DNA from: a virus
DNA length: 22,514 bases
Virus record (IMG/VR): IMGVR_UViG_3300047470_000184
Location: 1-22,514 of that record
Strand: one strand, 5' to 3'
The notes below the pieces were generated by a model, which saw only the letters and a list, made by a program, of their open reading frames with translations, was not told the DNA's origin and made no database searches. The position numbers were made by a program, and so were the translations under genes. This document shows positions 524-17,171 of the stretch, piece after piece (the first letter of the stretch is position 1; every line of letters begins with the position of its first letter).

Positions 524-551
524 GACAGGTCCGCGTTTTTGTGGGACGTAC

Positions 552-577
552 ACTGCTAGCACCGAAGTGCTAGCAGT
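552..577. promoter_or_regulatory. Paired GCTAGC element, copy 1 (11-bp inverted repeat before terminase)
   Basis: ACTGCTAGCAC (552-562) and GTGCTAGCAGT (567-577) form a perfect 11-bp inverted repeat around CGAA. It contains two GCTAGC hexamers (555-560 and 569-574) 14 bp apart, the same spacing as in the copies near 3697 and 16528. As DNA it is an operator-like site. As RNA it would be an 11-bp hairpin ending 12 bases before the GTG start at 590 and just before its ribosome binding site, so it could also influence translation. Confidence 0.6.
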
Positions 578-589
578 CCAGGGGGTGCA

Positions 590-2527
590 GTGGTCGTCAA
601 GATCGTGGGTGGCTCCGCCAACTCCCGGGACCGCAGGCGGACCAAGGTGTCCGCCCACAACGCCAAGGACGTGATCCTGGCCGGCATCAAGTCCGGCCTG
701 ACGGTCAAGAGGGCGTGCGAGGCCGCGGAGCGCGGCGTGAGCACGTACGCGTACTACCGCAAGACCGACCCGAACTTCCGGGTCATGGCCGACGCCGCCC
801 TCCAGCAGCGCAGCGGGGAGAACACCTCCAAGGAGGTGCCGGACTTCCCGGAGTTCTGCGAGGAGTACCTGAACACCAAGCTGTTCTGGCACCACTTGCA
901 GTGGTACGACCTACTGGAGGGCAGGGCCCCCCGGGACCTGCACCCCAACCAGCTCTACGAGCCGCGGGACCCGGACCAGATCCTGGTCAACACCCCACCA
1001 GATCACGCGAAGAGCACCACGCTCACGATCAACTACGTGACGTGGCGGATCTGCCAGGATCCGAACGTCCGAATCCTGATCATCTCCAAGACGCAGGACA
1101 TGGCCAAGAAGTTCCTGGTGGCCATCAAGGCGCGCCTGGCGGAGAACTCCGCGTACACCAAGCTCCAGGCGGACTTCGGTCCGCCGGGAGGCTTCGCCGA
1201 GGGCGCCGCCCGCTGGGCGGCGGACGCCATCTATGTGTCCGGGCAGGACTCTGGCGAGAAGGACCCCACGGTCCAGGCCGTGGGCATCAAGGGCCACATC
1301 TACGGCTCCCGCTGCGACCTGGCCATCATGGACGACACGGTGGACCACACGAACCACCAGGACTACGAGAAGCAGATCGACTGGATCCAGAACCAGGTCT
1401 CCAGCCGCGTGGCCGACGCTGGCGGCCGGATGCTCCTGGTGGGTACCCGCATGGAGACCGTGGACCTGTACTCCGAGATCCGCAAGCCGTCCTACTACGT
1501 GGACGGCGAGTCTCCCTGGACGTACCTGAAGCAGCCAGCGGTGCTGGAGTACGCGGACGATCCGAAGGACTGGAAGACCCTATGGCCGGAGACTAACCGC
1601 CCCCCGGTGTCCATCAAGGGCCGCAAGGTCGCGGAGTCTCAGGGCTGGCCCAGGGACGGCATGTGGCCCGCGTGGCCCGGCCCGGCGCTGGCGCGCAAGC
1701 GCTCCAAGATGCGGGCGCGCAACTGGAGCATGATCTACCAGCAAGACCAGGTGGCCGACGACTCCACCTTCAAGCAGGAGGACGTGCAGGGCTGCGTGGA
1801 CCGGGCCCGCTACCCGGGCCGGCTGATGGCCGGCCAGTCCGGCCACCGCCAGCACGGCATGGAGGGCGTGACCGTCATCGCCGGGGTGGACCCGGCTGCC
1901 GCCGGGTACACGGCGATCCACGTCTGGGCCCTGGACCGCCAGACCGGTGTCCGGTGGGTGCTGGAGGTCGTGAACAAGCGCGGCATGCTGCCGCACGAGC
2001 TGCGCGAGGAGATGTTCCGCATCACCGAGCGCTACGGCGTCTCGGAGTGGCGGATCGAGAAGAACGCCTACCAGGCGTCCCTGGTCCAGGATCGCCTGAT
2101 CCGGGACCACATGAACGCCCGGGGCGTTCTGATCTCCGGGCACACCACGGATGCGAAGAAGTGGGACCCGGACTACGGCGTGGCCTCCATGGCCACGCTC
2201 TTCGAGGGCTGGCGCGATGGGCGCAACCTGATCCGTCTGCCGTCGCAGACGCAGTCCGAGCCGGTGCGGAACTTCATCGAGCAGCTGTGCTCCTGGACGC
2301 CGGAGACCAAGGGCCTGACCGACACGGTCATGGCCGCGTGGTTCGTGGAGATCCGCTGCCGGGAGCTGATGGGCAGCGGCCTGGACGGCTGGCACACCAG
2401 TGACAGCGAGTTCATGTCCGAGCGGGACCGCGAGGGCCAGATGGTCGTGGACCTGGAGATGGCCCTTCAGCAGGGCGGTATCACCGCCTGGGACGGCCGC
2501 CTCGGCGGCTTCTCCGGGCTCAACTGA
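590..2527 (+). CDS. Terminase large subunit (DNA-packaging ATPase/nuclease)
   Basis: This is the motor protein that pumps DNA into the prohead and cuts the concatemer. The 645-residue protein has an ATPase domain with a Walker A-like PPDHAKST at 136-143 and a Walker B-like DLAIMDD at 243-249. An RNase H-fold nuclease domain follows, with likely metal ligands D434 (AGVDPAAAGY), E490 (WRIEKNAYQ) and D578 (LTDTVMAAW). Residues about 20-75 look like an added helix-turn-helix segment (AGIKSGLTVKRACEAAERGV), which might serve as a small-terminase-like DNA-binding part because no separate small terminase is seen. Start GTG 590 follows AGGGGG at 580-585. The length is typical of terminases with an N-terminal extension. 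The family call is firm; the role of the extension is inference. Confidence 0.95.
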   Translation: MVVKIVGGSANSRDRRRTKVSAHNAKDVILAGIKSGLTVKRACEAAERGVSTYAYYRKTDPNFRVMADAALQQRSGENTSKEVPDFPEFCEEYLNTKLFWHHLQWYDLLEGRAPRDLHPNQLYEPRDPDQILVNTPPDHAKSTTLTINYVTWRICQDPNVRILIISKTQDMAKKFLVAIKARLAENSAYTKLQADFGPPGGFAEGAARWAADAIYVSGQDSGEKDPTVQAVGIKGHIYGSRCDLAIMDDTVDHTNHQDYEKQIDWIQNQVSSRVADAGGRMLLVGTRMETVDLYSEIRKPSYYVDGESPWTYLKQPAVLEYADDPKDWKTLWPETNRPPVSIKGRKVAESQGWPRDGMWPAWPGPALARKRSKMRARNWSMIYQQDQVADDSTFKQEDVQGCVDRARYPGRLMAGQSGHRQHGMEGVTVIAGVDPAAAGYTAIHVWALDRQTGVRWVLEVVNKRGMLPHELREEMFRITERYGVSEWRIEKNAYQASLVQDRLIRDHMNARGVLISGHTTDAKKWDPDYGVASMATLFEGWRDGRNLIRLPSQTQSEPVRNFIEQLCSWTPETKGLTDTVMAAWFVEIRCRELMGSGLDGWHTSDSEFMSERDREGQMVVDLEMALQQGGITAWDGRLGGFSGLN

Positions 2528-2539
2528 CAAGGGGACGAG

Positions 2540-2794
2540 ATGAAGTACCGCAAGAAGCCCGTCGAGATCGAGGCTGTGCAGTGGAAGGGGTGGAACACCA
2601 CCGAGGTTGCAGACCTCATGGGCGCTTCCCCGGCCTTTGGGTCAGACGGGAAAGGTCTGCACTGGGTCTCGATCGAGACCCTGGAGGGCACCATGACCGC
2701 CTCCCTTGGCGACTGGATCATCAAGGGCGTGCAGGGCGAGTTCTACCCCTGCAAGCCGGACATCTTCGCCGCCACCTATGAGGAGGTGGCCTGA
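2540..2794 (+). CDS. Small phage protein of the MKYRKKPVEIEA...GDWIIKGVQGEFYPCKP type
   Basis: An 84-residue protein of unknown function. Its start (MKYRKKPVEIEAVQW) and its end (GDWIIKGVQGEFYPCKPDIFAATYEEV) match a small protein widely present in phages and prophages, which I recall as related to the PGDYG family. It is soluble, with no membrane segment or signal peptide. AAGGGG at 2530-2535 serves as ribosome binding site for ATG 2540. Its stop overlaps the endolysin start (TGATG at 2792-2796), so the two are probably translationally coupled. The family likeness is from memory of the motif; no biochemical role is known to me. Confidence 0.85.
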   Translation: MKYRKKPVEIEAVQWKGWNTTEVADLMGASPAFGSDGKGLHWVSIETLEGTMTASLGDWIIKGVQGEFYPCKPDIFAATYEEVA

Positions 2795-3693
2795 TGGCCA
2801 CCCCCATGACGGCGGACCAGTTCCTGGCCGCCCTCCAGGCCGAAGGGCTCCACATCGTGGGCCCCGCCGGATGGCGTGACCACAACCGCGCCGGCCACGG
2901 CGGCTGGGGCCCGATGAACGGCGTGATGATCCATCACACCGGTGGCACGGCGCCGAGTGACGGCGCCCTGGTCTGGGCCGGGCGCAGTGATCTGCCCGGC
3001 CCGCTGGCGCACGGCTACCTGGACAAGACCGGCGTAGTGACCATGACGGCCAACGGCCGGGCCAACCACGCCGGAGGCGGGGATCCCTCAGTCCTGGCGG
3101 CCGTGGTGGCCGAGGCGGCCACCGTGCCGCCCACGCACTATCACGACGGCTCCTCCGGGGCCGTGGACGGCAATGCGCACTTCTACGGCCTGGAGATCTC
3201 CAATCTCGGGGACGGCAAGGACCCGTACCCGGCGGCGCAATACGACGCCGCCGTGCGCTGGGCGGCAGCCATCTGCCGCTTCCACGGCTGGTCCGCTCAC
3301 TCCGTGATCGGACACAAGGAGTGGTCCGACTGGAAGTCGGACCCCAGCTTCTCGATGAACACCTTCCGGGCCGCTGTCGCGGCCCGCCTTGCGGCGCCCG
3401 CGGGCGCTTCCACCACGGAGGACGACGTGCCCCTGACCACCGCCGACGCGGACACCATCCTGAACGTCAAGCTGGACGACCCCACCACCACCGATGATTC
3501 CCAGGTCAGCCTGCGGGCCGTGCTCTGGAGTGCCGGCGCGAACGCCTTCCAGGCGAACAACGCCGTGAAGGCGGCCCGGGGCGACATCGCCGCCCTGGCG
3601 GCGAAGGTCGACAAGATCTCGACCGGGGGCGTCGATCTGGACGCCCTGGCGGCCAAGGTGGCCGACCTGCTGGCCAAGCGCCTGGAGTCGTGA
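2794..3693 (+). CDS. Endolysin: N-acetylmuramoyl-L-alanine amidase (Amidase_2/PGRP type)
   Basis: This enzyme is predicted to cleave the amide bond between N-acetylmuramic acid and the stem peptide for host lysis. Within 299 residues the catalytic domain covers about 20-200. It has the zinc motif IHHTGG (H47, H48), NAHFYGLEISN around 128, and IGHKEWSDWKSDPS with H174 and D183 as further zinc ligands. Residues 204-299 form an Ala- and Asp-rich tail (PLTTADADTILNVKLDD, ending in a helical VDLDALAAKVADLLAKRLES) without LysM or SH3 repeats, possibly a cell-wall-targeting or oligomerising part. There is no signal peptide, so it should need a holin, yet none is adjacent. It lies between packaging and portal genes, an unusual place for a lysis gene. 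Confidence 0.92.
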   Translation: MATPMTADQFLAALQAEGLHIVGPAGWRDHNRAGHGGWGPMNGVMIHHTGGTAPSDGALVWAGRSDLPGPLAHGYLDKTGVVTMTANGRANHAGGGDPSVLAAVVAEAATVPPTHYHDGSSGAVDGNAHFYGLEISNLGDGKDPYPAAQYDAAVRWAAAICRFHGWSAHSVIGHKEWSDWKSDPSFSMNTFRAAVAARLAAPAGASTTEDDVPLTTADADTILNVKLDDPTTTDDSQVSLRAVLWSAGANAFQANNAVKAARGDIAALAAKVDKISTGGVDLDALAAKVADLLAKRLES

Positions 3694-3694
3694 T

Positions 3695-3729
3695 CTGCTA
3701 GCACATTTCTGCTAGCTACCGGGTATAAC
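3695..3729 (+). promoter_or_regulatory. Paired GCTAGC element, copy 2, with a -10-like TATAAC, before the portal gene
   Basis: GCTAGC occurs at 3697-3702 and 3711-3716, exactly 14 bp apart and in direct orientation when the flanks are considered (CTGCTAGC both times). TATAAC at 3724-3729 is a good -10-like hexamer 7 bp after the second box. No recognisable -35 is present at the right distance; the first box lies about where a -35 would be. This suggests an activator-dependent or phage-specific promoter for the portal operon. It sits in the 59-bp gap between endolysin and portal. Confidence 0.55.
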
Positions 3730-3752
3730 GGAATCAACAAGGGAGGTGCCGC

Positions 3753-5570
3753 ATGGCCGACATGGACGTGATCGCCCGGCGCGTGAGCGTGCTGCGTGCC
3801 GATCACACCGAGCGGGATGTGCGGCACCAGACCGTCTACGACGTGCGGGCCAACAAGGTGGACCGGATCCAGCCCGGCAGCCTGCCGGACGCCTGGCCCA
3901 AGCCGATCGTGGCCAACGTGATCGACACCTCCGCCCGGCAGCTCGCGGAGAACCTGGCCCCGCTCCCCTCGATCAACTGCGCCTCGGGCATCACGACTTC
4001 GGACCGGGCCAAGAAGTTCGTGGCCAAGAAGACGAAGGTCGCGTACTCGTACGTGATCGACAGCCAGCTGAAGTCCCGCATGCCGCAGGGCTGCGACTGG
4101 TACGTGACCTACGGGTCCCTGCCCGTGATCGTGGAGCCGGACTTCAAGGACGGCAAGCCGAAGATCCGGTTCGACAACCCGAAGGGCAGCTACCCGCAGT
4201 TCGACATGTGGGGCCGGGTCATCTGCTACGCCCGGGTGTACCGGGAGAAGGCGCACGAGCTGGCGGCGAAGTTCCCCGACGCCGCTGACCAGATCTACGA
4301 GCGCAACTGGGCCGGCCAGCGCATCACCTCCGACGACGCCCTGATCGAGGTCGTGAAGTACCTCGACAAGGACGTGCAGCTCCTCTACATGCCGGAGCGC
4401 AAGAATGCGGTCCTGGCCGAGACGCCGAACCTGTTCGGAAAGTGCCCGGTGGCCGTGGCGGTCAAGCCCAGCTACGACGAGCAGGACCGCGGCCAGTTCG
4501 ATGACGTGATCTACCCGCATCTTGCTCGAGCGCGCATGGCCATGTTGGCGCTCGAGGCCACGAACCAGACGGTCCGGGCGCCGCTGGCGCTCCCGACCGA
4601 CGTGCAGAAGATCTCCTTCGGCGACAACGCCGTGATCCGCACGAACTCGCCGGAGAAGATCCGGCGGGTGGGGACGGACATCCCCACCGCTGCGTTCCAG
4701 CAGGAGCAGATGCTGGCCGAAGAGGTGATGCGCGGTACGCGCACCCCGGCCAGTGCCACGGGCGACGTGAACGCCTCGATCATCACCGGGCAGGGCGTCA
4801 ATGCCCTGAACGGCGGCTATGACATCCAGATCGCCACCGGGCAGACCATCATCGGTCACGCCCTGGAGCAGGCGCTGATGCTGGCCTTCGAGATGGACGA
4901 GAAGTTCTGGCCGGATGCCGTGAAGACGGTCTCCGGCGTCATCAACGGGACGCCGTTCCAGCAGACCTACACCCCGAAGAAGGACATCGCCGGGGACTTC
5001 CGGGTCTCCGTGACGTACGGGTTCGCCAGTGGCATGAACCCCAATCAGGCGCTCGTGTTCCTGCTCCAGCTGCGCGGGGACCAGCTGGTCCCCCGGGACT
5101 TCGTCCAGCGGCAGCTGCCGATGGACGTGGATGTGAGCCAGCTCCAGATCCAGATCGATAACGAGCAGATCACGGACGCCCTGAAGCAGGGCCTGTTCGC
5201 GGAGCTGTCCAGCATCGGGATCATGGCCCAGCAGGGCATGGACCCGAGCCAGATCCTGCGCAACGGCGCACAGATCATCTCCCTGCGGGAGAAGGGCGTG
5301 CCCCTGCACGAGGCCGTCCTGAAGACCTACCAGGCTCCTCCGCCGCCGCCGTCCCCCGCGGCCGGAGGCCCTGGCGCCCCTGCGGGCGAGGGCCCCGCAG
5401 GGGCGCTTCCGGGGATGAACCCGACCACGGGCGCCCCGATGGGCGTTGCGCCCGGCCAGGCCGGGATGGGTCCCGGCGGCCGGCCTGACCTCCAGACCCT
5501 GCTGGCCAGTTTGAGTGGAAACGGACAAGCCGACCTGCGGGCCGGAGTTAAGAGGAGCGTTCCGGCATGA
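3753..5570 (+). CDS. Portal protein
   Basis: The portal is the dodecameric ring at the capsid vertex through which DNA enters and leaves. The 605-residue product lies directly after terminase and lysis genes and has the features of long portals. These are a helical N-terminus (VIDTSARQLAENLAPLP), a mixed alpha/beta core, a long helical region with HLARARMAMLALEATNQ near residue 256, and LREKGVPLHEAVLKTYQ near residue 510. The C-terminal 75 residues are Pro/Gly-rich (APPPPPSPAAGGPGAP) and probably disordered. GGGAGGTG upstream is a strong ribosome binding site for ATG 3753; ATG 3762 is a weaker alternative. The call rests on size, position and general pattern, not on a single diagnostic motif. 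A rare-codon hairpin lies at 4525-4556. Confidence 0.8.
   Translation: MADMDVIARRVSVLRADHTERDVRHQTVYDVRANKVDRIQPGSLPDAWPKPIVANVIDTSARQLAENLAPLPSINCASGITTSDRAKKFVAKKTKVAYSYVIDSQLKSRMPQGCDWYVTYGSLPVIVEPDFKDGKPKIRFDNPKGSYPQFDMWGRVICYARVYREKAHELAAKFPDAADQIYERNWAGQRITSDDALIEVVKYLDKDVQLLYMPERKNAVLAETPNLFGKCPVAVAVKPSYDEQDRGQFDDVIYPHLARARMAMLALEATNQTVRAPLALPTDVQKISFGDNAVIRTNSPEKIRRVGTDIPTAAFQQEQMLAEEVMRGTRTPASATGDVNASIITGQGVNALNGGYDIQIATGQTIIGHALEQALMLAFEMDEKFWPDAVKTVSGVINGTPFQQTYTPKKDIAGDFRVSVTYGFASGMNPNQALVFLLQLRGDQLVPRDFVQRQLPMDVDVSQLQIQIDNEQITDALKQGLFAELSSIGIMAQQGMDPSQILRNGAQIISLREKGVPLHEAVLKTYQAPPPPPSPAAGGPGAPAGEGPAGALPGMNPTTGAPMGVAPGQAGMGPGGRPDLQTLLASLSGNGQADLRAGVKRSVPA
4525..4556 (+). repeat. 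Hairpin inside the portal gene built from rare codons
   Basis: CTCGAGCGC (4525-4533) is perfectly complementary to GCGCTCGAG (4548-4556). The 14-nt loop contains the palindrome CATGGCCATG (4535-4544). The codons that create it include CTT, GCT, CGA and TTG, which are uncommon in this GC-rich gene. This suggests the nucleotide sequence itself may matter, as an RNA structure or protein-binding site. The stem is read directly; function is not known. Confidence 0.5.
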
Positions 5571-5698
5571 GCGAAAACCTGAAGTGCCGCGACTGCGGCC
5601 ACGCGGCCCCGATCATCGACGGCGTGCTGGTCCTCACGGACCACGCCGCCGACTGCGCTGGTGCCCAGCGCAAGGTCATCACCGTGGACCCCGCATGA
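5567..5698 (+). CDS. Very small putative zinc-binding protein
   Basis: A 43-residue product, MSENLKCRDCGHAA..., with C7-x2-C10 plus H12, H26 and C30 as candidate zinc ligands, so it resembles a minimal zinc ribbon or knuckle. ATG 5567 overlaps the portal stop by 4 nt (ATGA), and the next gene starts in the same way (ATGA at 5695-5698), giving a coupled chain. GAGGAG at 5553-5558 serves as ribosome binding site. There is no membrane segment. The family is not recognised; a nucleic-acid-binding or small regulatory role is only a guess from the cysteine pattern. Confidence 0.7.
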   Translation: MSENLKCRDCGHAAPIIDGVLVLTDHAADCAGAQRKVITVDPA

Positions 5699-5937
5699 GC
5701 GACTGTCAGACCTGCGGCCGGGACGACGGCCACTACATCGGCTGCGCGGAGATTGCGCAGCCCTTCGAGCTACGCAGGCGCGCTGACGCGCCAGACCCCG
5801 AAGAGCACATGGCGGAGTTGATCGAGAAGGCCGGTCAGTGCGCCTTCGGCGAATGCAAGAACCCCAAGCGCCCGAAGGGCAAGGGCCCTGCGCCCAAGTA
5901 TTGCGAAGAGCACAGCGACCCGAAGAACAGGAAGTAG
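5695..5937 (+). CDS. Small protein with two putative zinc knuckles
   Basis: An 80-residue product carrying two separate Cys/His sets. The first is C4-x2-C7 with H13 and C17; the second is C49-x4-C54 with C70-x2-H73 (KYCEEH). The second set has a Lys/Pro-rich loop (NPKRPKGKGPAPK), the look of short zinc fingers that many actinophages encode. ATG 5695 is chosen because it overlaps the preceding stop (ATGA); the same frame is open upstream, but an earlier start would overlap the portal and the 43-residue gene. Function is unknown. Tandem small Cys-rich genes within a head operon suggest either assembly cofactors or modulators of host proteins. Confidence 0.75.
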   Translation: MSDCQTCGRDDGHYIGCAEIAQPFELRRRADAPDPEEHMAELIEKAGQCAFGECKNPKRPKGKGPAPKYCEEHSDPKNRK

Positions 5938-5940
5938 ATC

Positions 5941-6171
5941 ATGGCCGACACCGGATTCACGGGCGACCCCTACCACGAGGGCGCCAGCCAGCCCATGGCG
6001 CACCTCCAGGGCGGCATGGCGGAGATCCACACCCAGATGCCGATGACCTCCGAGGCGATGACCAACCCGCGCAGCGCGGGCGTGGACAACGTCCAGCAGA
6101 CCTGGAACACCACCTCGCTGGCGCCCACCGCCGCGAACACCCCGAACAACGACTCTCACGAGGCCCGCTGA
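5941..6171 (+). CDS. Hypothetical 76-residue protein
   Basis: The product MADTGFTGDPYHEGASQ... is polar, rich in Thr, Asn, Met and Gly, and has no Cys pair, membrane helix or signal peptide. It looks partly disordered (ending TAANTPNNDSHEAR). AGGAAG at 5931-5936 precedes ATG 5941, and the gap to the preceding stop is 3 nt, so it belongs to the portal operon. It is not a family I recognise. Given its place it may be a minor virion or assembly protein. A stem-loop begins at its stop codon (6170). Confidence 0.7.
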   Translation: MADTGFTGDPYHEGASQPMAHLQGGMAEIHTQMPMTSEAMTNPRSAGVDNVQQTWNTTSLAPTAANTPNNDSHEAR

Positions 6172-6200
6172 CCTCCTAGTCAGGAGGTCTCTTAGGAGGA
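6170..6200 (+). promoter_or_regulatory. Stem-loop with anti-Shine-Dalgarno-like arm before the gene at 6204
   Basis: GACCTCCT (6170-6177) pairs perfectly with AGGAGGTC (6182-6189) around AGTC. The left arm contains ACCTCCT, identical to the anti-Shine-Dalgarno end of 16S rRNA. It could pair with AGGAGGT at 6182-6188 or, alternatively, with TAGGAGG at 6193-6199, which lies 4 nt before ATG 6204. No T-run follows, so a terminator is less likely than an RNA element affecting translation of the downstream gene. Confidence 0.5.
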
Positions 6201-6203
6201 GCG

Positions 6204-6674
6204 ATGGCCAACGGCCATGGGGGCGCACGGACCCCCAGCTCCCCCGCCCCGGTCTCCGGGCCGGGGGCTCTCAGTCGCAGGACGGATTCCGGTCCCGCGG
6301 ACCAGAAGCAGCCGGTCCGCGTCCCCACGGGCGGCGCGTACGGCGACGCCACGCAGCTACGCCAGGACCAGCAGGGTGCGCCGCTGGCCGCCTCCGGCGG
6401 CGGGGACACCCCGACCCCCGGCCTTCTGGCCGGGATGTCGCTGCCCACCGGGCCGGGCCTGGCTGCGCCCACGCAGCAGCCCGGCGTGCCCGTCACCGAC
6501 GGGGCGGCCTCGGGCCCCGGCGCGGGCCCGGAGGCCCTGGGCCTGCCGGCGCAGAAGGACCAGGACATGCAGGCCCTGGTGGCCTACCTGCCCGTGTTCG
6601 AGCACGTGGCGAACATCCCCGGCGCCAGCTCGGCGTTCCGCAACATGGTGCGGCAGATCAAGGGGAACGCGTGA
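6204..6674 (+). CDS. Hypothetical Pro/Gly/Ala-rich protein
   Basis: This 156-residue product begins MANGHGGARTPSSPAPVSGPGALSRRTD and is of low complexity to about residue 110 (many PG, AP and TP pairs), probably disordered. A folded-looking C-terminus follows (DMQALVAYLPVFEHVANIPGASSAFRNMVRQIKGNA). The opening resembles small proteins I have seen beside portal genes in other actinophages, but I know no function. Two consecutive AGGAGG sequences precede it, the nearer 4 nt before ATG 6204. It overlaps the following gene at its stop (TGATG). A virion-assembly role is a position-based guess. Confidence 0.75.
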   Translation: MANGHGGARTPSSPAPVSGPGALSRRTDSGPADQKQPVRVPTGGAYGDATQLRQDQQGAPLAASGGGDTPTPGLLAGMSLPTGPGLAAPTQQPGVPVTDGAASGPGAGPEALGLPAQKDQDMQALVAYLPVFEHVANIPGASSAFRNMVRQIKGNA

Positions 6675-6856
6675 TGGATTGGGTAGACCGAGTGGGCGCG
6701 ATGTACCAGTTCTTCAACGGCTACCCGCCGCTGGCGCACGACATGGGGATCAACGGCCCCCAGTCCGACTTCGCCTACTCCCTGGCGTACGGGGTGCAGA
6801 ACACCTCCACGCCTCTGGATGTGTATCCGGCGGACACCCAGACCTTGGCAGGCTGA
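6674..6856 (+). CDS. Hypothetical 60-residue protein
   Basis: The product MDWVDRVGAMYQFFNGYPPLAHDMGINGPQSDFAYSLAYG... is aromatic-rich, without Cys pairs or a clear membrane helix. ATG 6674 overlaps the preceding stop by one base and follows AAGGGG (6660-6665) at good distance; GTG 6671, one codon earlier in the same frame, is also possible. It ends 1 nt before the GTG of the giant virion gene, so translation of the two is probably coupled. Function is unknown. Confidence 0.65.
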   Translation: MDWVDRVGAMYQFFNGYPPLAHDMGINGPQSDFAYSLAYGVQNTSTPLDVYPADTQTLAG

Positions 6857-6857
6857 C

Positions 6858-9800: not shown

Positions 9801-11762
9801 CCCGACGTGCACACCGGGCAGGTCGGGCAGGGGCAGTCCAGGTTCAAGGGCGCGCTGAACGACATCATGTCGGGCTGGTTCAACTGGGCGGCGAAGCTGC
9901 CGGCTGACAACTGGTCCCGGCATCCGCTGTTCAACCAGTTCTACGAGGACCACCTGGAGACGCTGGCCGGCCAGCTGAAGAAGCAGGGCGCGTATGACAC
10001 CACGACCGAGGGTGTGGAACGCATGGCCACGACCGCGCGCCGCCTGGCGCTGCGAGACACGCGCAAGCTGGTCTTCGACATAGCACACAGGTCTGACGCC
10101 GCAGCCGCACTGCGGCTCATCTCGCCGTTCATGGCGGCGACCACGGAGTCCTTCCAGCGCTGGGGTCGGATCATCGCGGACAAGCCCCAGGTCGTGGGCT
10201 ACGCCAACGACTTCTTCAACGCGCCGATCGCCAAGGGCAACATGCAGGACGCCGACGGCAACGACGTGACGAAGGACGGGTACAGCTACACGATCGACCC
10301 GGCGACCGGCAAGGCCGTGAAGAAGCTGGTCCCGAAGTCCCAGCGTTACATCGTGGGGCGGATGCCCAGGTGGCTGGTCCACGGCACGGGCGGCAAGCTG
10401 TCGCCGTTCGCCCTGGCCATCGGTGCCGACCCCTCCAGTCGGAACTTCAAGCTCAGCCAGAACTCCATGAACCTGGTCACCCAGGGTGACCCGTGGTTCA
10501 ACCCGGGCGTGGGCCCGATTGTGCAGATTCCCGTGAACGCCCTGGTCAAGGACAAGCCGAAGGCTGCGGAGCTGGCCCGCCAGCTCCAGGTTCTGCCCTT
10601 CGGGCCGCAGAACGGCGGTGCCTTCGGCACCGGTCCGGCCGGCGAGGCCGCGTCCTTCCTCCTGCCCAGCACGGTGAAGAATTTCCTGACCGGGTTCGAC
10701 ACCTCGGACGACCGCTATCAGCAGGTCAAGCTCCAGATCATGCAGCGCGCTGCGTTCGAGCACGACCAGCTGGGCAAGCCGATGCCCAGCGCGAAGCAGA
10801 TCGCGGCCATGACGCGGAACTACTGGATGTTCTCCGCGGCGTCAGCCTTTCTTCAGCCGATGGCGACGCAGAAGAGCGACAACTACCAGTTCTTCCGGGA
10901 TCAGTACAACAACCTGCGGCGCATCGATCCGCTGACGGCGGACGACGAGTTCCTGAAGCGCTACGGGGAGTCGTACTTCATCTTCGCCCAGTCCCAGTCC
11001 AAGAACGAGTCCGGGATCCCGGCCACGGTCAAGGCCGTGGACTTGGAGAAGAAGTACGGCGATCTCATCGCCGCCAACCCGGAGCTGGGGGCCCTGATCG
11101 TGGGGCCCGAGGGCAACGGGCCCTTCTCGCCGGAGGCGTACTCCTACCAGCTGAACACGCCGGTCACGCCCGGCGGCTCGGAGATGCAGCGGACCAAGAT
11201 GTCCGCGAGCGATGCCATGGAGGAGAACCAGCGCCGGCTGGGCTGGGCGAAGTACACGGGCTTCATGAACGCCCTGACCGCCAAGCTCCACAACCAGGGC
11301 TTCAAGTCGTTCTCCGACAAGGGCGCCGAGGCCCTTCGGGCACAGAAGCAGGCCATCACGCAGCTGTTCGGGTCGCCGACGCTGCCTGACGGCAGCCAGA
11401 ACCCGTTCTACAACGAGGCGTGGTCCAAGGATTTCAACACCCTGGACCCGCTGAAGTACGAGCGCCTGATCCCCAGCCTTCAGAAGGTCGCCACAAGCCC
11501 TCTGGCGGCCGATCCCAACCGCAGTGACCTTCGGGTCCTCCAGACCTATCTGGGGGCCCGACAGGGCATTGTGCAGGCCCTGGCGCTGCGCAAGAAGAAC
11601 GGCGGTTCCAATGACATCCAGGCCAAGGCGAACGCGGACGTACTGACCGCGTGGCAGAAGTTCGTGGACGGACTCGTGGAGTCCGACACGCGGTTCGGCG
11701 ACCTGCACTCGCGCTACCTGGCGCGAGACCTCGGCTACGACGGATCGACCCAGGAGGCGTAA
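6858..11762 (+). CDS. Giant putative internal virion (DNA-ejection) protein
   Basis: A 1634-residue protein, by far the largest gene here, and a candidate for the internal or ejected protein that travels with the DNA in podovirus-like particles. It is mainly helical and soluble, with no signal peptide and no peptidoglycan-hydrolase motif that I can find. Notable parts are a Gly/Phe amphipathic N-terminus (MGLGGFFKDLGKGVSATAGAL), a coiled-coil-like stretch at about 330-420, a hydrophobic block at about 670-740 (FKFGTLFRLGYIPRVAGDDLAG) and AALRLISPFMAATTESFQRW near 1080. GTG 6858 is chosen because it lies 1 nt after the previous stop; an in-frame ATG at 6819 would overlap that gene. A tape-measure protein is the main alternative, but the usual tail genes are missing. 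Confidence 0.65.
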   Translation: MGLGGFFKDLGKGVSATAGALNTVDRYINPFHTEAGSAHTGAPNQSNFLGLGKSPLGDAVVSNEINPSLESVSKGLNWVYDNGISQPLSTALMAGELNGGAFRASNWSMAWHAAEHISPAQALFLGPKDNDPASTQKAVESPLDYYKPDSAYLPPDFDQKSPQEQQAFLKKAGMPAVGNAYINELRQSSSTFKYASGVGDFALRWWADPTIIAGRTASELRKTSQVVRRPAEGWSTQDIDKIMASSTMAKAEQFTWENRNNPALLNNLAMAKNSALGPRFGAIVSTLQSPAEVHEFYRVTLGHVDAIEKLQTQNALAASRIEQDTSRYSALDAMHTRYANVGNRRMTDLVDQQMTALNARVNADESLVARYSQVLDHAHELDQVNLTRWSFARAQQATDAQAEYRAGAARGGEFVRNRARAVTISPLAGKPLLPGVSRASAPGAGIESYAPRTLRAASTPLDSGLIKSRLYGVGDFFSTPVTMVRSLANARPNGYMRIDDIDKDSIAELRGQLARIPGISNDTRLNMLNEYLKTKTEGERLALLKEIGATGAAKVAEKHGLDPKLGLDIYQEHLKRQVGEIDNMKRYSNATKPVTMPDGSTSQIHVDEFMTDGGKVVVHPNLVTRMANDHVFQDLDEMDKVLARNASSFRAIRTSKLGNPDWMLDRADQLTSLFKFGTLFRLGYIPRVAGDDLAGQVARLGAANMALRAGWGVRNGATNAALRVTKRMAAARAATGQKGVDYAAEKMAEVKSQIDGLTASGADADRLASLQEHYDFLKSYRDLKRKAVDSDLAEAAAPKAKAGTRQVALPGGVTAPAAFEGDEGQYFMKSISSDEALGQIFSTNKALVHGHLMRSFDHGGKAISAAQDETLHATSWAHAINAQLMQDPLASQAVRGASVEDMTKWLKSTAEGRQYQRRIGMTPGARGAGTENRIIADPEELANSAWHDVAEYMPTPDIRHAALEGEVTPDFLKKAMPMEQRPDVHTGQVGQGQSRFKGALNDIMSGWFNWAAKLPADNWSRHPLFNQFYEDHLETLAGQLKKQGAYDTTTEGVERMATTARRLALRDTRKLVFDIAHRSDAAAALRLISPFMAATTESFQRWGRIIADKPQVVGYANDFFNAPIAKGNMQDADGNDVTKDGYSYTIDPATGKAVKKLVPKSQRYIVGRMPRWLVHGTGGKLSPFALAIGADPSSRNFKLSQNSMNLVTQGDPWFNPGVGPIVQIPVNALVKDKPKAAELARQLQVLPFGPQNGGAFGTGPAGEAASFLLPSTVKNFLTGFDTSDDRYQQVKLQIMQRAAFEHDQLGKPMPSAKQIAAMTRNYWMFSAASAFLQPMATQKSDNYQFFRDQYNNLRRIDPLTADDEFLKRYGESYFIFAQSQSKNESGIPATVKAVDLEKKYGDLIAANPELGALIVGPEGNGPFSPEAYSYQLNTPVTPGGSEMQRTKMSASDAMEENQRRLGWAKYTGFMNALTAKLHNQGFKSFSDKGAEALRAQKQAITQLFGSPTLPDGSQNPFYNEAWSKDFNTLDPLKYERLIPSLQKVATSPLAADPNRSDLRVLQTYLGARQGIVQALALRKKNGGSNDIQAKANADVLTAWQKFVDGLVESDTRFGDLHSRYLARDLGYDGSTQEA
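7492..7513. repeat. 22-bp perfect palindrome inside the giant virion gene
   Basis: TCGCTGGCCGT is followed immediately by its exact reverse complement, with no spacer, covering codons for IIAGRTASE. It includes GCT and CGT codons where GCC and CGC would be commoner in this genome. A perfect dyad this long is not expected by chance in 22 kb. The role is unknown: protein-binding site, recombination site or chance. Confidence 0.6.
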
Positions 11763-12658
11763 TGGCGATCACCGACAGCTCCACTCCGACGCCCAGCGCC
11801 TCTTCGGGCGCCGGCCTGACCCCGGCACAGCAGAAGGCGCTGGACTCCATCGCCGCCAGCATCGGCAACTCCGGGTCCGGTGGGCCCGGCAAGGTCTTCA
11901 TGGGCTACACCCCGGGGAAGACCGCGAACTCCCGGTTCACCTCCGAGGCGGGCCAGGCGCGTCAGCAGACGCAGCCGCGCACGCCCAGCTGGTGGTCCCT
12001 GAGCGGGGCCACCAGCCAGTATTTCAACTGGACCCAGAAGCAGCGCGACGACTTCCGGGCCAAGGGCCTGCTCTCGGGCCTGCTCACGCAGGGAGCGGGC
12101 GACCTGGAGGCGTACAGCCTCTGGCAGAACTTGGTGAACCAGGCGGCCCTGTACGGGGCGCAGGGCCAGGAAGTCGGCCCCCTGGACATCCTGTCGGGGT
12201 ACGTGAAGTCCAACTCCAGCGGCGGCTGGATCAAGCAGGGGGACTTCGAGATCAACCCGGTCACGGGCGAGAAGCGGTACATCGGGCCGCAGTTCAAGAC
12301 CACGACGCAGAGCAACATCGACGTCACGGACCCGGCGACCGCTCGGGCGATCGCCACCAAGGTCTTCCAGGATCTCCTGGGCCGGGATCCCGGCCAGGGG
12401 GAGATCCAGGCGTACGCCAACGCGCTGAGCCAGAGCGAGGCGAACAACCCGTCCAGCACGACCACGACCACGCAGTACGACCCGACCACGGGCGAGGCCA
12501 CGAACTCCAGCTCGGTCACCACGGGCGGCATGACCGATGACGCCCGTGCCCTGCTGGCCAGCGACCAGCTGAAGAAGAACAAGGAGTACGGGGCCTACCA
12601 GGCCGCGACCACTTACCAGAACGCCCTGGACCAGGCGGTGTACGGAGGTCCGAGCTGA
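11762..12658 (+). CDS. Putative internal virion protein, 298 residues
   Basis: The product has a Ser/Thr/Gly-rich, probably disordered start (about 1-75). A central region with aromatic residues follows (WWSLSGATSQYFNWTQKQRDDFRAKGLL). Near residues 200-220 is a short helical motif VFQDLLGRDPGQGEIQAYANAL, of a kind seen in several phage structural proteins. A Thr-rich linker (STTTTTQYDPTTGEATNSSS) precedes the C-terminus. ATG 11762 overlaps the giant gene's TAA (TAATG), after AGGAGG at 11752-11757. The stop overlaps the next start (TGATG). Position between the giant protein and two cell-wall hydrolases suggests the same ejection apparatus. Precise function is unknown. Confidence 0.7.
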   Translation: MAITDSSTPTPSASSGAGLTPAQQKALDSIAASIGNSGSGGPGKVFMGYTPGKTANSRFTSEAGQARQQTQPRTPSWWSLSGATSQYFNWTQKQRDDFRAKGLLSGLLTQGAGDLEAYSLWQNLVNQAALYGAQGQEVGPLDILSGYVKSNSSGGWIKQGDFEINPVTGEKRYIGPQFKTTTQSNIDVTDPATARAIATKVFQDLLGRDPGQGEIQAYANALSQSEANNPSSTTTTTQYDPTTGEATNSSSVTTGGMTDDARALLASDQLKKNKEYGAYQAATTYQNALDQAVYGGPS

Positions 12659-13950
12659 TGACCGTCTCCGGCCTCGACATCGTCAACTTCGCCAAGAGCG
12701 CCCTGGGCACGAAGTACGTCTGGGGCGGCGACGACCTGAAGACCGGCGTGGACTGCTCCGGGCTGGTGCAGCAGGTCTTCGGGCACTACGGGATCCAGCT
12801 TCCCCGGGTCACCTACGACCAGATCAACCAGGGCGCCTCCGTCCCCGTGGACAAGCTCCAGCCTGGTGACCTGGTGTTCTTTGACACCGAGCCGGGCAAC
12901 AAGGGCGCCGATCACGTCGGGATCTACATCGGCGGGGGCAAGTTCATCCACGCGCCCCACACGGGCGACGTGGTCAAGATTTCCAGTTTGTCGGATTCGT
13001 ACTACATGAACCGCTTGATGGGCAGCCGCCGCATCGGCGGCGTGTCCGGCTACGCCCCCTCGGGGGCGGCGACAGCCACCCCGCAGATCAAGCTCTCCGC
13101 GGACGAGCTGGCCGACAACTACGGCATGTCGTACGCGTTCTTCAAGTCCCAGCCGGAGCTGATGGGCCTGCTGAAGTCCGCCGTGGCGGACCAGTGGACG
13201 CCGGACAAGTTCCAGGCGGAGTTGAAGAACACCAAGTGGTGGAAGAACAATTCGGACAGCGCCCGCAAGGCGCAGGTTCAGGCGAAGACGGACCCGGCCA
13301 CGTACCAGGCGTCCATCGCCGCGGCCCAGGCGGACGCGGCCAAGCGCGCCGTGGAGGCCGGCGCGATCCTCAGCGCCAAGCAGGTCGGCACCCTGGCCAA
13401 GAACATGGTGGACTACGGCTGGGACGACACGCAGATCCAGAACTTCCTGGGCCAGTACGTGAAGTTCCGCACCGATGGCACGCTGGGCGGCCAGGCGGGA
13501 GCCGCCGCCGACCAGATCACGAAGTACGCCTACGACCAGGGCATCCGGATCTCGGACCAGACGGTGAAGAACAACGCCGCGTACCTGGTGCGCGGCCTGA
13601 CGACCATGCAGCAGATCCAGGACGGCATGCGTCAGCAGGCCATCTCCACGTACCCCGGCTGGAGCGAACAGCTCCAGGCCGGCGCGACGATGCGCGACAT
13701 CGCGCAGCCGTACATCCAGATGATGGCGCAGGAGCTGGAGCTGCCCGACAGCGACATTGATGTCTGGCATCCGAAGGTCTACGCCGCGCTCCAGCAGGCT
13801 GGCCCCAAGGGCCAGCCCAGCCCGATGACGCTGTCGGACTTCCAGCGCACCCTGCGCACTGACCCGGCCTGGAAGGCCACACAAGGGGCCCAGGACCAGA
13901 CCCTCCAGGTCGGGCACCAGGTTCTCCAGTCCCTGGGGCTGGCCTCATGA
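12658..13950 (+). CDS. NlpC/P60 peptidoglycan peptidase fused to a virion domain
   Basis: In this 430-residue protein, residues 1-130 form an NlpC/P60 cysteine peptidase, which cuts stem peptides of peptidoglycan. The catalytic C33 lies in GVDCSGLVQQVF, H86 in ADHVGIYIGGG and H98 in KFIHAP, with YVWGG before the Cys. Residues about 145-430 are a long helical region starting IKLSADELADNYGM, homologous along its length to the C-terminal part of the next gene product (LKNTKWW, LPDSDID, HQVLQ). It has no signal peptide, and it is encoded among virion genes rather than with lysis genes, so a role in opening the wall during DNA entry is likely. Starts at ATG 12658 (TGATG overlap). Confidence 0.9.
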   Translation: MTVSGLDIVNFAKSALGTKYVWGGDDLKTGVDCSGLVQQVFGHYGIQLPRVTYDQINQGASVPVDKLQPGDLVFFDTEPGNKGADHVGIYIGGGKFIHAPHTGDVVKISSLSDSYYMNRLMGSRRIGGVSGYAPSGAATATPQIKLSADELADNYGMSYAFFKSQPELMGLLKSAVADQWTPDKFQAELKNTKWWKNNSDSARKAQVQAKTDPATYQASIAAAQADAAKRAVEAGAILSAKQVGTLAKNMVDYGWDDTQIQNFLGQYVKFRTDGTLGGQAGAAADQITKYAYDQGIRISDQTVKNNAAYLVRGLTTMQQIQDGMRQQAISTYPGWSEQLQAGATMRDIAQPYIQMMAQELELPDSDIDVWHPKVYAALQQAGPKGQPSPMTLSDFQRTLRTDPAWKATQGAQDQTLQVGHQVLQSLGLAS

Positions 13951-15224
13951 CGATCACATTCGCCCAGTTCAAGGCGGGCATCAAGAAGGTGGAGTCCGGC
14001 GGGCGCTACAGCGTCGTGAACTCCATTGGCGCCGTAGGCGCCTACCAGGTCATGAAGGCCAACATCCCCAGCTGGACCAAGCGGGCCCTGGGCTACTCGA
14101 TGACCTGGCAGCAGTTCCGGGACTCGCCGCAGGCCCAGGAGAAGGTCGCCGACGTCATCCTGGGCGGCTACTTCAAGCAGTACGGCGCCGAGGGCGCCGC
14201 CTCGATGTGGTTCTCCGGGCAGCCCAACCCGCGCTCCAGCGCGAGCGACGGCGGCAACACCGTTGCCCAGTACGTAGCCAAGGTCATGGCCGCCGCGGGC
14301 GGCAGTTCCGCCGGAGGCGGCGGAGGAGCGGTAGGAGCGGCGGCCGTGACGCCCAAGCTGAGCATGGACGAGCTGGCGGCGCAGTACGGCCTCAGCTCCG
14401 CGCTGATCAACTCCAGCAAGGAGTTGAAGTCGCTGTTCAACAAGGCGGTGGCCGGCAGCTGGTCTGCCGACCTGTTCACCGCCCGGTTGAAGAATACGAA
14501 GTGGTGGTCCACGCAGAGTGACACTCTGCGGCAGTACATCACCACCAAGTACACCGACCCGGCGACCTGGAGGCAGAAGTACGGCCAGGGCACCGCGGAC
14601 ATGAACTCCATCGCGGTGCAGGTGGGCCTGGGCAACCAGATCAACTCCAAGGGCCAGAGCAGCAAGCTCCTCCAGACCGCCACGTACTACTCCCTGGCGC
14701 TCGGCTGGTCCGACGCCAGGATCAAGGACTGGATGGGTGGCCAGGTCCAGGGCCACGCCGGGGTCATGTGGGGCGAGGCCGGCCAGACCTACGACAAGCT
14801 CCAGTCGATCGCGTACCTGAACGGGATCAAGCTGGCCACCAGCTGGTACACCAACAACGTCCGGGCCGTGGAGTCGGGCAAGAGCACGGAGTCCCAGCTG
14901 GAGGACTCCATCCGCAAGACCGCGGCAGCGCGGTACTCCGCCTTCGCCCCGCAGATCCTCGCGGGGCAGAACGTCATGGATCTGGCGTCCCCGTACATCC
15001 AGTCCGTGTCCAAGATCCTGGAGGTCCCGGACACGGACGTGGACCTGTTCAACTCCCACGTGGCCAAGGCCATGAGCTACAACAACAAGGGTCAGGCGTA
15101 CTCGATCTGGCAGTTCGAGAATGACCTGCGCCAGGACCCCTTGTGGAAGAAGACCCAGAACGCACAGGACGGGGCGATGCAGACCGCCCATCAGGTGCTC
15201 CAGCAGTTCGGCATGGCGTTTTAG
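13947..15224 (+). CDS. Lytic-transglycosylase-like protein fused to the same virion domain
   Basis: The 425-residue product has an N-terminal lysozyme/transglycosylase-like domain. It carries a probable catalytic E16 in KKVESGGRYSVVNSIGAVGAYQVM, with the GAYQVM motif typical of the fold, then a second half ending about residue 115. A Gly/Ala/Ser linker (SSAGGGGGAVG) joins it to a helical region from about 133 (PKLSMDELAAQYGL) that aligns with the C-terminal region of the preceding NlpC/P60 protein (LKNTKWW, LEVPDTDVD, LRQDPLWKKTQNAQD, HQVLQQFG). It presumably cleaves the glycan strands while its neighbour cleaves the peptides. ATG 13947 overlaps the preceding stop by 4 nt (ATGA). Confidence 0.88.
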   Translation: MTITFAQFKAGIKKVESGGRYSVVNSIGAVGAYQVMKANIPSWTKRALGYSMTWQQFRDSPQAQEKVADVILGGYFKQYGAEGAASMWFSGQPNPRSSASDGGNTVAQYVAKVMAAAGGSSAGGGGGAVGAAAVTPKLSMDELAAQYGLSSALINSSKELKSLFNKAVAGSWSADLFTARLKNTKWWSTQSDTLRQYITTKYTDPATWRQKYGQGTADMNSIAVQVGLGNQINSKGQSSKLLQTATYYSLALGWSDARIKDWMGGQVQGHAGVMWGEAGQTYDKLQSIAYLNGIKLATSWYTNNVRAVESGKSTESQLEDSIRKTAAARYSAFAPQILAGQNVMDLASPYIQSVSKILEVPDTDVDLFNSHVAKAMSYNNKGQAYSIWQFENDLRQDPLWKKTQNAQDGAMQTAHQVLQQFGMAF

Positions 15225-15238
15225 GGGATGATGACCTG

Positions 15239-16156
15239 ATGGCAGCGGTACCTCCGAACCTGGTGACCACGCCGAACCCCAACGGCGTGGACCCGGGCTA
15301 CTCCCAGTCCCCCACGGACCGGTTCACCAACGCCCTGACGGGCGCGAGCAGGGATGCCTTCGTGGCGCTGAACGCCCTGTTCACGTCGTACGGTCTGGCG
15401 ACCCTGGCACCGAAGATCTTCAGCTACATCCAGAACGGGTACAGCGCTGACACGATCAGTCTCCTGCTCCAGGAGACCCCGGAGTTCAAGCAGCGCTTCG
15501 CGGGCAACGAGCTGCGCCAGAAGGCGGGGCTGGCCGTGCTCAGCCCCGCGGACTACCTGGCCACGGAGGCCAGCTACCGCCAGGTGATGGCCAGCGCTGG
15601 CCTGCCGGCCAGCTTCTATGACACGCCTGCGGACTTTGCCAACTGGATCGGCGGCGACGTGTCGCCGACGGAGATCAAGTCCCGGGTGGACCTGGCCACG
15701 GCCGCGACCACCGCGGCCGACCCGTACCTGAAGCAGCAGCTCGCTGCGTTCTACGGCGTCGATGACGCCCACCTGACGGCGTACTTCCTGGACCAGTCCA
15801 AGGCGCTGCCCCTGCTCCAGAAGCAGGGGGCAGCCGCCCAGTTCGGGGCCGAGGCAGCCCGCAGGGGGCTGCTGAGCGACCCCGAGCGGATGATGGACTA
15901 CGTGAACCAGGGGTTCAGCCAGTCCCAGGCCAGCCAGGGCTTCCAGCAGGTCGCGGACGAGCTGCCGAACCTTCAGGCCCTGGCCCAGAGGTTCGGTACC
16001 ACGTTCAGTCAGACCGAGGAGGAGCAGTCCGTGTTCGGCACCAGCGCCGACTCCCTAGCCAAGAAGCGCGGCCTGGCCAGCCAGGAGCGCGCTCAGTTCG
16101 GCGGAGCCATCGGAGGAGCCGGAGGGGGCCTGTCGGCGGGGTATCGTGCTACGTAA
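15239..16156 (+). CDS. Putative internal virion protein, 305 residues
   Basis: The product MAAVPPNLVTTPNPNGVDPGYSQSP... is largely helical. It contains a block of the pattern LLLQETPEFKQRFAGNELRQKAGLAVLSPADYLATEASYRQ (about 76-116) and FYDTPADFANWIGGDVSPTEIKSRVDLA (about 123-150), a kind of module that recurs in actinophage virion proteins near large internal or tail proteins. The C-terminus is Gly-rich (GGAIGGAGGGLSAGYRAT). ATG 15239 is the likely start; an earlier in-frame start would overlap the transglycosylase gene. It closes the ejection-protein cluster, and its stop lies immediately before the tRNA-like element. Function is inferred only from place. Confidence 0.7.
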   Translation: MAAVPPNLVTTPNPNGVDPGYSQSPTDRFTNALTGASRDAFVALNALFTSYGLATLAPKIFSYIQNGYSADTISLLLQETPEFKQRFAGNELRQKAGLAVLSPADYLATEASYRQVMASAGLPASFYDTPADFANWIGGDVSPTEIKSRVDLATAATTAADPYLKQQLAAFYGVDDAHLTAYFLDQSKALPLLQKQGAAAQFGAEAARRGLLSDPERMMDYVNQGFSQSQASQGFQQVADELPNLQALAQRFGTTFSQTEEEQSVFGTSADSLAKKRGLASQERAQFGGAIGGAGGGLSAGYRAT

Positions 16157-16157
16157 G

Positions 16158-16255
16158 GGACACGTAGCTCAGCTTGGCAGAGCACTTGGCGCCCGGGCCG
16201 CCTAGCGGGCGGCCTGCTACAGGAGAGGTCGCGGGTTCAAATCCCGCCGCGTCAC
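16158..16255 (+). tRNA. tRNA-like element, isotype uncertain, possibly degenerate
   Basis: The 5' part reads like a tRNA: T8 A9, D stem GCTC (16167-16170) with GAGC (16180-16183), and loop AGCTTGGCA. The 3' part has a perfect T arm (GCGGG 16231-16235, TTCAAAT, CCCGC 16243-16247). The acceptor pairing (16158-16164 with 16248-16254) has mismatches at positions 1 and 5. The middle is 47 nt rather than about 22. It holds a strong stem GGCCGCC/GGCGGCC (16196-16202 and 16208-16214), which would give anticodon loop CTAGCGG (AGC, Ala), and an alternative loop CTGCTAC (GCT, Ser) at 16214-16220. No CCA is encoded at the expected place. It may be a class-II-like, interrupted or decayed tRNA. Confidence 0.45.
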
Positions 16256-16259
16256 CCCA

Positions 16260-16286
16260 GAAGCCCCCGGTCGCTCCGGGGGCTTC
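16260..16286. terminator. Bidirectional terminator hairpin
   Basis: GAAGCCCCCGG (16260-16270) pairs perfectly with CCGGGGGCTTC (16276-16286), an 11-bp stem with loop TCGCT. There is no long T-run on either side, but the stem is very strong. It lies between the + strand ejection/tRNA unit and the minus-strand gene ending at 16292, exactly where convergent transcripts would need to stop. Confidence 0.65.
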
Positions 16287-16291
16287 GTGCT

Positions 16292-16471
16292 TCAGCTTCG
16301 CTCCCCCGCCAGGTACCAGGTGCGCAGCGCAGCCGCTGCGAACAGCGCGGCGATGATGCCGCTGCCGACCCGGCCTCCGGCGCCCTGGTCGCCGATGACG
16401 GCGCCTGCGGCAGCGCCTGCGGCGATGACCGCCAGGACGATCCCGATCCAGATCTTCAGTGCCTTCTTCAC
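16292..16471 (-). CDS. Small two-helix membrane protein (only minus-strand gene)
   Basis: A 59-residue product starting at GTG 16471: MKKALKIWIGIVLAVIAAGAAAGAVIG..., with hydrophobic helices at about 7-27 and 36-54 and a positive N-terminus. AGGGGG lies 4 nt before this GTG; a longer form from ATG 16513 adds 14 polar residues but has a poorer ribosome binding site. The gene opposes its neighbours and is bounded by a terminator. It shares its upstream region with the scaffold operon, the usual look of a separately expressed extra gene (moron). A holin or superinfection-exclusion protein is conceivable, since the endolysin here has no adjacent holin, but nothing in the sequence proves either. 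Confidence 0.6.
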   Translation of the reverse strand: MKKALKIWIGIVLAVIAAGAAAGAVIGDQGAGGRVGSGIIAALFAAAALRTWYLAGERS

Positions 16472-16492
16472 GTCTCCCCCTTGGTTGGTGGT

Positions 16493-16570
16493 CGCAGCGT
16501 AGCGCTGCGTCATGCCTTTCGGCAGGCGCTAGCGGATAACTGCTAGCACCTCGGGCATACTGGGTATGCC
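16493..16570. promoter_or_regulatory. Paired GCTAGC element, copy 3, with flanking dyads in a divergent gap
   Basis: GCTAGC boxes at 16528-16533 and 16542-16547 are again 14 bp apart. On the left is CGCAGCG/CGCTGCG (16493-16499 and 16503-16509, 7 bp). On the right is GGCATAC/GTATGCC (16554-16560 and 16564-16570, 7 bp, 3-bp spacer), which includes a -10-like CATACT at 16556-16561, 8 bp after the second box. This matches the spacing at the portal copy, where TATAAC follows 7 bp after. The site lies between the minus-strand gene and the scaffold gene, so it could control both. The 97 bp from 16571 to the scaffold start hold no gene that I can support. Confidence 0.55.
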
Positions 16571-16667
16571 AGGGACCCGACCGGCCCCCTGGCCGTAGAA
16601 GTCCGGGAGTGGAGCGCGAACCCGATCCCCAGCGGGTGAGTAGGCCACGCAGAACAGGGAGTACGCA

Positions 16668-17171
16668 GTGAGCGAGATGTACGGCTTCGGCGAAGAGGTA
16701 GAGCCCACCGAGCAGGGCCAGGGCGAGCAGGGACCCAAGTGGTTCCGCGAGCAGATGGCGAAGGTCTCGGGAGACATCAAGGCTCTCCGGGACGAGAACG
16801 CCGCCCTGCGGGCCGAGAAGGCACGCCAGGAAGTCGAGAAGAAGCTCACGGCGCAGGGCTACGCCCCGCAGGCCGCCGGCCTGTACACGGGCACGCCCGA
16901 AGAGCTGGACAGCTGGCTGGCCGCCAACGGCGGCGCACTGGCCAAGACCGGCGGCGAGGCCGCCGGGGAGGCCGGACAGGGCGTGCAGGGCACGCCGCAG
17001 TCGGTGGTTCCGGCCGAGAGCCAGCAGGCCCTGGCGGCGTTCAGCGCCGCCGGAACGGACGGAGCGCCCGCACTGTCGGGCGAAGACGCCCTGGTCGCGC
17101 GGATGGACTCCTTCAACAACCCCGAAGAGTTCAAGAAGTTCATGCGCGAGCAGGGAAACCGCCGCTTCTGA
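16668..17171 (+). CDS. Putative capsid scaffolding protein
   Basis: The 167-residue product is acidic at its start (MSEMYGFGEEVEPTEQGQGEQ), then has a coiled coil with heptad spacing at about 36-60 (DIKALRDENAALRAEKARQEV). A Gly/Ala/Gln-rich disordered centre follows, then a short helical basic end (NNPEEFKKFMREQGNRRF). This is the usual plan of phage scaffolds: dimerising coiled coil plus a basic C-terminal capsid-binding tail. It lies 56 bp before the major capsid gene, the expected place. GTG 16668 follows AGGGAG (16656-16661); ATG 16677 is possible. No protease motif is visible. The scaffold call is by architecture and position rather than sequence family. Confidence 0.75.
   Translation: MSEMYGFGEEVEPTEQGQGEQGPKWFREQMAKVSGDIKALRDENAALRAEKARQEVEKKLTAQGYAPQAAGLYTGTPEELDSWLAANGGALAKTGGEAAGEAGQGVQGTPQSVVPAESQQALAAFSAAGTDGAPALSGEDALVARMDSFNNPEEFKKFMREQGNRRF

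Follow-up and report, generated by a model that had tools for sequence, protein, structure and literature searches.

Why should the same pair of hexamers stand in front of three separate groups of phage genes? The question is raised by a 22.5-kb virus record (G000 among the genomes compared; hereafter the window, meaning the whole stretch of 22,514 nucleotides analysed), which represents the late region of a Streptomyces-type phage. Its gene order is terminase, endolysin, portal, a 1647-aa protein, tail proteins, one tRNA, a scaffold-like protein and capsid, and the genes concerned are as follows.

590 to 2527, plus strand: terminase large subunit gene, GTG start (PHROG_38, E=2e-74).
3753 to 5570, plus strand: portal protein gene (PHROG_104, E=9e-29).
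16668 to 17171, plus strand: scaffold-like protein gene, GTG start, before the capsid gene (PHROG_7813, no annotated function).
17228 to 18199, plus strand: major capsid protein gene (PHROG_1357, E=2e-71).

A scaffold role is suggested for the PHROG_7813 gene by its position. The isolated relatives nearest to the window are Streptomyces phages WRightOn (Manuelvirus, Beephvirinae), Abafar and others, with identities of ~50% for portal and 56% for capsid, and a near-identity DNA search of isolated phages returned no close relative of the window. Note that the sole tRNA, a tRNA-Pro (cgg) at 16157-16259 on the plus strand, is unusually long (103 nt), and that 23 and 14 tRNA genes are annotated at this position in WRightOn and Abafar, respectively.

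The first-pass annotation had described three GCTAGC pairs 14 bp apart, each in a gap before terminase, portal or scaffold/capsid, with no other GCTAGC in the window. The positions proved exact: GCTAGC occurs six times (555, 569, 3697, 3711, 16528 and 16542), every one of them in a GCTAGC-N8-GCTAGC pair, and no further pair was found in the window with up to two mismatches allowed. All three copies are in non-coding gaps, which make up ~7% of the window. The copies and the -10-like hexamers beside them are listed below.

553 to 576, no strand assigned: copy 1, CTGCTAGCAC-CGAA-GTGCTAGCAG, a perfect dyad with 10-bp arms, before terminase.
549 to 554, plus strand: putative -10-like hexamer TACACT, directly upstream of copy 1 and touching its box 1, assigned from conservation.
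3697 to 3716, no strand assigned: copy 2, GCTAGC-ACATTTCT-GCTAGC, before portal; portal site also in 5 other distinct relatives.
3724 to 3729, plus strand: -10-like hexamer TATAAC, 7 nt past box 2 of copy 2, assigned from conservation.
16528 to 16547, no strand assigned: copy 3, GCTAGC-GGATAACT-GCTAGC, before scaffold/capsid; also in 20 other distinct relatives.
16556 to 16561, plus strand: -10-like hexamer CATACT, 8 nt past box 2 of copy 3.

The boxes of copy 1 (555-560 and 569-574) end 15 nt ahead of the terminase GTG (590), and this copy is conserved in the close group, as 10 distinct TerL_A sites. Copy 2 is within the endolysin-portal gap (3694-3752), and copy 3 is 120 nt ahead of the scaffold GTG (16668). 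The 10-mer CTGCTAGCAC was found four times among the half-sites, once inverted, as had been annotated (553-562 on the plus strand, 567-576 inverted, 3695-3704 and 16540-16549), and the -10-like hexamers annotated after copies 2 and 3 are those listed. Downstream of copy 1 there is no -10, a layout that the annotation did not mention. Next to copy 3, a small ORF (16292-16513, minus strand), which is divergent and includes a hydrophobic segment, starts 14 bp from the copy; similar minus-strand ORFs occupy this place in G001, G002 and G003, and the ORF may also be affected by copy 3.

Six single GCTAGC hexamers are ordinary for the window, the mean in shuffled sequences being 3.95. Pairing is what chance did not reproduce: not a single GCTAGC pair at spacing 14 arose in 400 Markov simulations, and in a set of 60 no simulated window had, for any hexamer at a spacing of 7-40, three pairs and no unpaired copy.

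Relatives were gathered by capsid, portal and terminase protein searches, which gave ~200 viral loci, several of them sharing contigs, and 2 bacterial genome loci. When 2.03 Mb of related phage DNA was scanned at a threshold of at least 11/12 box matches, 69 of the 74 matches were directly upstream of TerL, portal or scaffold/MCP; for those loci in which the scaffold gene was not placed, a position up to 800 bp before the capsid gene was counted. They correspond to 49 distinct upstream matches (22 terminase, 21 scaffold and 6 portal). The other five compare with ~4.5 expected by chance, as calculated by arithmetic for random sequence, indicating that the pair is not scattered in coding DNA and does recur upstream of the same genes in relatives, both of which the first-pass annotation had named as points to check. 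By a weight matrix applied to long contigs, each genome had 1-3 sites scoring 23-36 and everything else scored at most 15; early regions and the HTH/integrase locus had no such site, not even one of a second tier. The element thus marks late promoters only, one to three per genome, recurring as a dyad at several promoters of one phage and standing at only one late promoter in G006 and G029. The annotation had spoken of a phage-wide regulatory code: the regulatory site at structural promoters stands, and its extension to the whole phage does not, since the early region is left out. A perfect GCTAGC-N8-GCTAGC off the usual positions was seen in L192 (619-638), ~940 bp upstream of the terminase and amid opposite-strand ORFs. 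Literature joining GCTAGC, phage and promoter comprised, by title and abstract, only unrelated work.

The consensus of the element is GMTAGC, an A/T-rich spacer of 8 and GCTAGC, a near-symmetrical 6-8-6 dyad. Its spacer is AGAAATGT-like at terminase and the reverse complement, ACATTTCT-like, at portal; since the centre occurs either way round, its direction is apparently unimportant. The element has a fixed relation to the -10, in two geometries. In the first, the hexamer follows box 2: all 12 class-B terminase sites have TAnnnT at 5-6 nt, all 6 portal sites have TATAAC at 7-8 nt, and 17 of the 21 scaffold sites have a -10-like hexamer at 5-9 nt. In the second, that of the class-A terminase in the window's close group, a -10 was downstream in 0/10 sites, and TAnnCT abutted box 1 upstream in all nine sites with readable sequence (the tenth, L223, is too near the contig end to be read upstream). 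Relative to the presumed starts, the dyad is at ~-38 to -18 at portal, scaffold and most terminase promoters, and at ~-6 to +14, over the presumed transcription start, at the class-A terminase. Sites lie anywhere between 34 and 373 nt from the start codon. Inspection by eye showed no consistent -35 upstream of the late -10s, and some group-B portals keep a late-style -10 where the element is absent, indicating that the -10 does not depend on the element. We infer from these sequences that the -10-like hexamers belong to real promoters. Class-B terminase leaders (L168, L175, L182 and others) have a GGGCCCC/GGGGCCC-type hairpin after the -10, which is absent from the window's group.

This layout suggests that the element is very probably a binding site for a regulator of late promoters. 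Two readings would give it another function. The first is that box 1 GCTAGC is the -35 hexamer, used with a TAnnnT -10 by a phage-encoded or alternative sigma factor; box 1 is near -35 at portal and scaffold, and the virulent WRightOn encodes a sigma-70 region-4 protein (PHROG sigma-K, E=5e-34). A sigma -35 would be a single hexamer ~15-19 bp upstream of the -10, whereas the element has two boxes, the distance from box 1 to the -10 varies between 19 and 22 bp, and the order is reversed at the class-A terminase, where the element is downstream of the -10. Furthermore, the second box, equally conserved, would be left without a role, the element is near-symmetrical with its centre in both orientations, and no homologue of the WRightOn sigma-like protein was found in element-bearing genomes. 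We give this reading little credence. The second, which we regard as very improbable, is a role outside transcription, such as a packaging start, partition, recombination at module borders or an RNA hairpin. It would suit the perfect palindrome of copy 1, whose 10-bp arms adjoin the terminase gene, and the location of sites at module borders; the portal and scaffold copies are, on the contrary, fixed upstream of a -10 and so not transcribed from that promoter, and no T-run follows any copy.

The distribution of the regulator site was compared with phage lifestyle. Among records of ~45 kb or more, the strict element was present in 7/10 with a serine integrase and 0/8 without (Fisher p=0.004), an association that is not independent evidence because element and integrase both follow phage clades, and in which several records may be incomplete (G004 and G005 end where the integrase is expected). 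Two of the three integrase-positive records without the strict element, G007 and G026, have 6-8-6 variants, and G008 has the element with no integrase found. One relative is prophage-like, inside a 196-kb Streptomyces composti contig, and is without the strict element. The element is absent from the virulent Manuelvirus phages WRightOn and Abafar, the latter reported to have no lysogeny genes.

Host genomes bear on whether the binder is a phage or a host protein. S. himalayensis (9.3 Mb) had 6 pairs with at most one mismatch, of which only the two on a phage contig had A/T-rich spacers; S. composti had 1 pair at the same threshold, and no A/T-rich-spacer match was found outside phage sequence in either genome. 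Since these genomes are nearly free of sites outside phage sequence, a phage protein is likely to be the binder. The same scarcity counts against a host regulator whose site the phage has taken over, although phages often use host factors and no phage binder was pinned down among the candidates; we consider it the least probable of the readings.

Of the three options in the first-pass annotation, a repressor site, an activator site or a phage-specific promoter, the last is weakened by the occurrence of the element on either side of the -10, the activator remains and the repressor is favoured. We consider it somewhat more probable than the contrary that the main action of the element is repression. 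A phage-encoded regulator, probably a dimer, would bind the dyad at late promoters; where the dyad is at -38 to -18 it would occupy the -35 region, so that the bound dimer keeps RNA polymerase off, and over the presumed start of the class-A terminase promoter the bound dimer would likewise exclude RNA polymerase. The terminase, portal and capsid operons would then be silent in lysogeny, and perhaps in early infection, and would come on only once the regulator had gone or been displaced. Repression is favoured by the site being on either side of the -10, by its near-symmetry, by its loss from single promoters with the -10 kept, and by its co-occurrence with integrase; a repressor readily accommodates such a change of side, which an activator or a -35 box could hardly do. 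On the other hand, unlike a classical immunity repressor, the putative repressor would have no site at early promoters, and late promoters without a recognisable -35 and with tight -10 spacing would suit a late activator too.

The lack of an evident -35 and the closely kept distance between box 2 and the -10 make a late-gene activator the main rival. From the dyad at ~-38 to -18 it would recruit or remodel RNA polymerase, acting negatively at the window's terminase as a dual regulator. The confinement of the element to late promoters would fit, and phage Mu C serves several late promoters through one site type, which overlaps the -35 at Pmom (PMC4461284). An activator is less easily reconciled with the close-group terminase site downstream of the -10, with group-B portals that retain the -10 without the site, and with integrase-less relatives, which need late genes yet have no site. 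We regard activation as possible, but clearly less probable than repression. We lean slightly towards the element being an operator of a family of largely temperate Streptomyces phages that acts mainly by repression at late promoters.

Some relatives have variants of the element. In G007, GATGGC-agaaaagg-GCCATC takes the place of the element, 5 nt before a TAGCTT -10; in G026, GCTAGC-N8-CGTAGC is 5 nt before TACCCT; and G004 has a 9/12 version at scaffold. In these variants specificity appears to have drifted while the 6-8-6 layout stayed constant, and repressor sites of other actinophages are known to differ in motif between relatives (PMC6550527). A more specific proposal, which we put forward tentatively and think doubtful as it stands, is that a dedicated late-promoter repressor, with sites absent from early promoters, silences the structural operons as a separately evolving switch, having specificity variants such as GATGGC-N8-GCCATC and being lost together with integrase in virulent relatives. 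At the scaffold promoters of L269 (the S. composti prophage) and L024 (G007), GAACAYGTTC is beside the -10 and the full GCTAGC dyad is absent.

Leading candidates for the binder are small HTH proteins beside the integrase, which form two families. One of them, HTH-A, adjoins the integrase in most genomes whose early region could be read, and its AlphaFold model is a confident, generic HTH with no close PDB match. In its recognition helix, R precedes an aromatic residue in 6/10 element-positive versus 0/5 element-negative genomes (p=0.04, for a feature chosen after looking), so that the helix differs only suggestively by element status. Other proteins were considered and rejected. The DUF5753/DUF397 pair, which is related to the Streptomyces WhiJ/BldB proteins, correlates with the element (p=0.007), but DUF5753 was found in 2 records without the element as well as in 8 with it, is absent from the element-bearing G006, G008 and G029, and has no N-terminal HTH in its ORFs. 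Likewise, a WhiB-like protein is present in nearly all genomes, with or without the element, and ribbon-helix-helix proteins near the terminase are present in few genomes only. In L271-L280, a DUF5753 without the usual HTH (five examined) and an adjacent DUF397 make up a headless WhiJ/BldB-type pair.

A second conserved feature begins just past the -10 of copy 3.

16565 to 16650, plus strand: conserved structured RNA leader of the scaffold/capsid transcript, predicted from covariation.

The leader has 20 pairs, and 96.8% of 340 cells are paired. Double changes are numerous and spread across four helices: 11 pairs have them, with 48 double-changed cells versus 13.9 in shuffled alignments. In slid controls pairing drops to 35-49%, a comparison that favours the structure because it was drawn from the same alignment. 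A CCGG/CCGG pairing is invariant across sequences and possibly forms a pseudoknot. In a search with the leader model, the window matched at 81 bits and most genomes searched had one match each; no match was obtained in WRightOn and Abafar, and an Rfam search with the leader RNA gave none. We propose this leader as a candidate for a new cis-regulatory RNA.

Taken from sequence alone, these data point to likely late promoters and a common control site for a widespread and little-studied group of temperate Streptomyces phages, and they give a directly testable claim on how structural genes stay off in the lysogen. Late genes of most model temperate phages are controlled by activation or antitermination, and a late-only repressor site would therefore be unusual, if true. 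The site, which contains CTAG, was seldom found in the two host genomes scanned and might be useful in Streptomyces genetics as a clean control element; the leader RNA would be a second, independent handle on capsid expression.

Classical immunity-repressor operators accompany the early lytic promoters and the repressor's own gene; here, sites were found neither in early regions nor at the HTH/integrase locus. The conserved inverted repeats of phiC31, repressor sites of a temperate Streptomyces phage in its early/essential region, are of a similar inverted-repeat type, but the element has no early-region copy. Temperate actinophages with repeated short repressor sites also include the Cluster A mycobacteriophages (L5), whose stoperators vary in motif among relatives. 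A stoperator is an asymmetric site of 13 bp, and a genome may have up to 30 of them, most pointing the same way (PMC6550527), whereas the element occurs as 1-3 near-symmetric dyads per genome at late promoters only, and it does not qualify as a stoperator. The C sites of phage Mu resemble the element in that one type of regulator site is common to several late promoters, C being the late transactivator of the four late promoters of Mu (PMC4461284). Mu C activates, whereas one class of the element is downstream of the -10 (the class-A terminase), so that a site upstream of the -10 was not found at every late promoter, and the element accompanies integrase genes. Finally, like the element, the extended start-associated sequences (ESAS) of Cluster K mycobacteriophages are phage-specific inverted repeats that precede some of the genes and are conserved among relatives; they are 17-bp imperfect repeats with a variable spacer, beside a 13-bp translation-start sequence (PMC3203893). 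The element differs from ESAS, and is not to be grouped with them, in that its spacing is fixed and its position is tied to the -10, not to the start codon.
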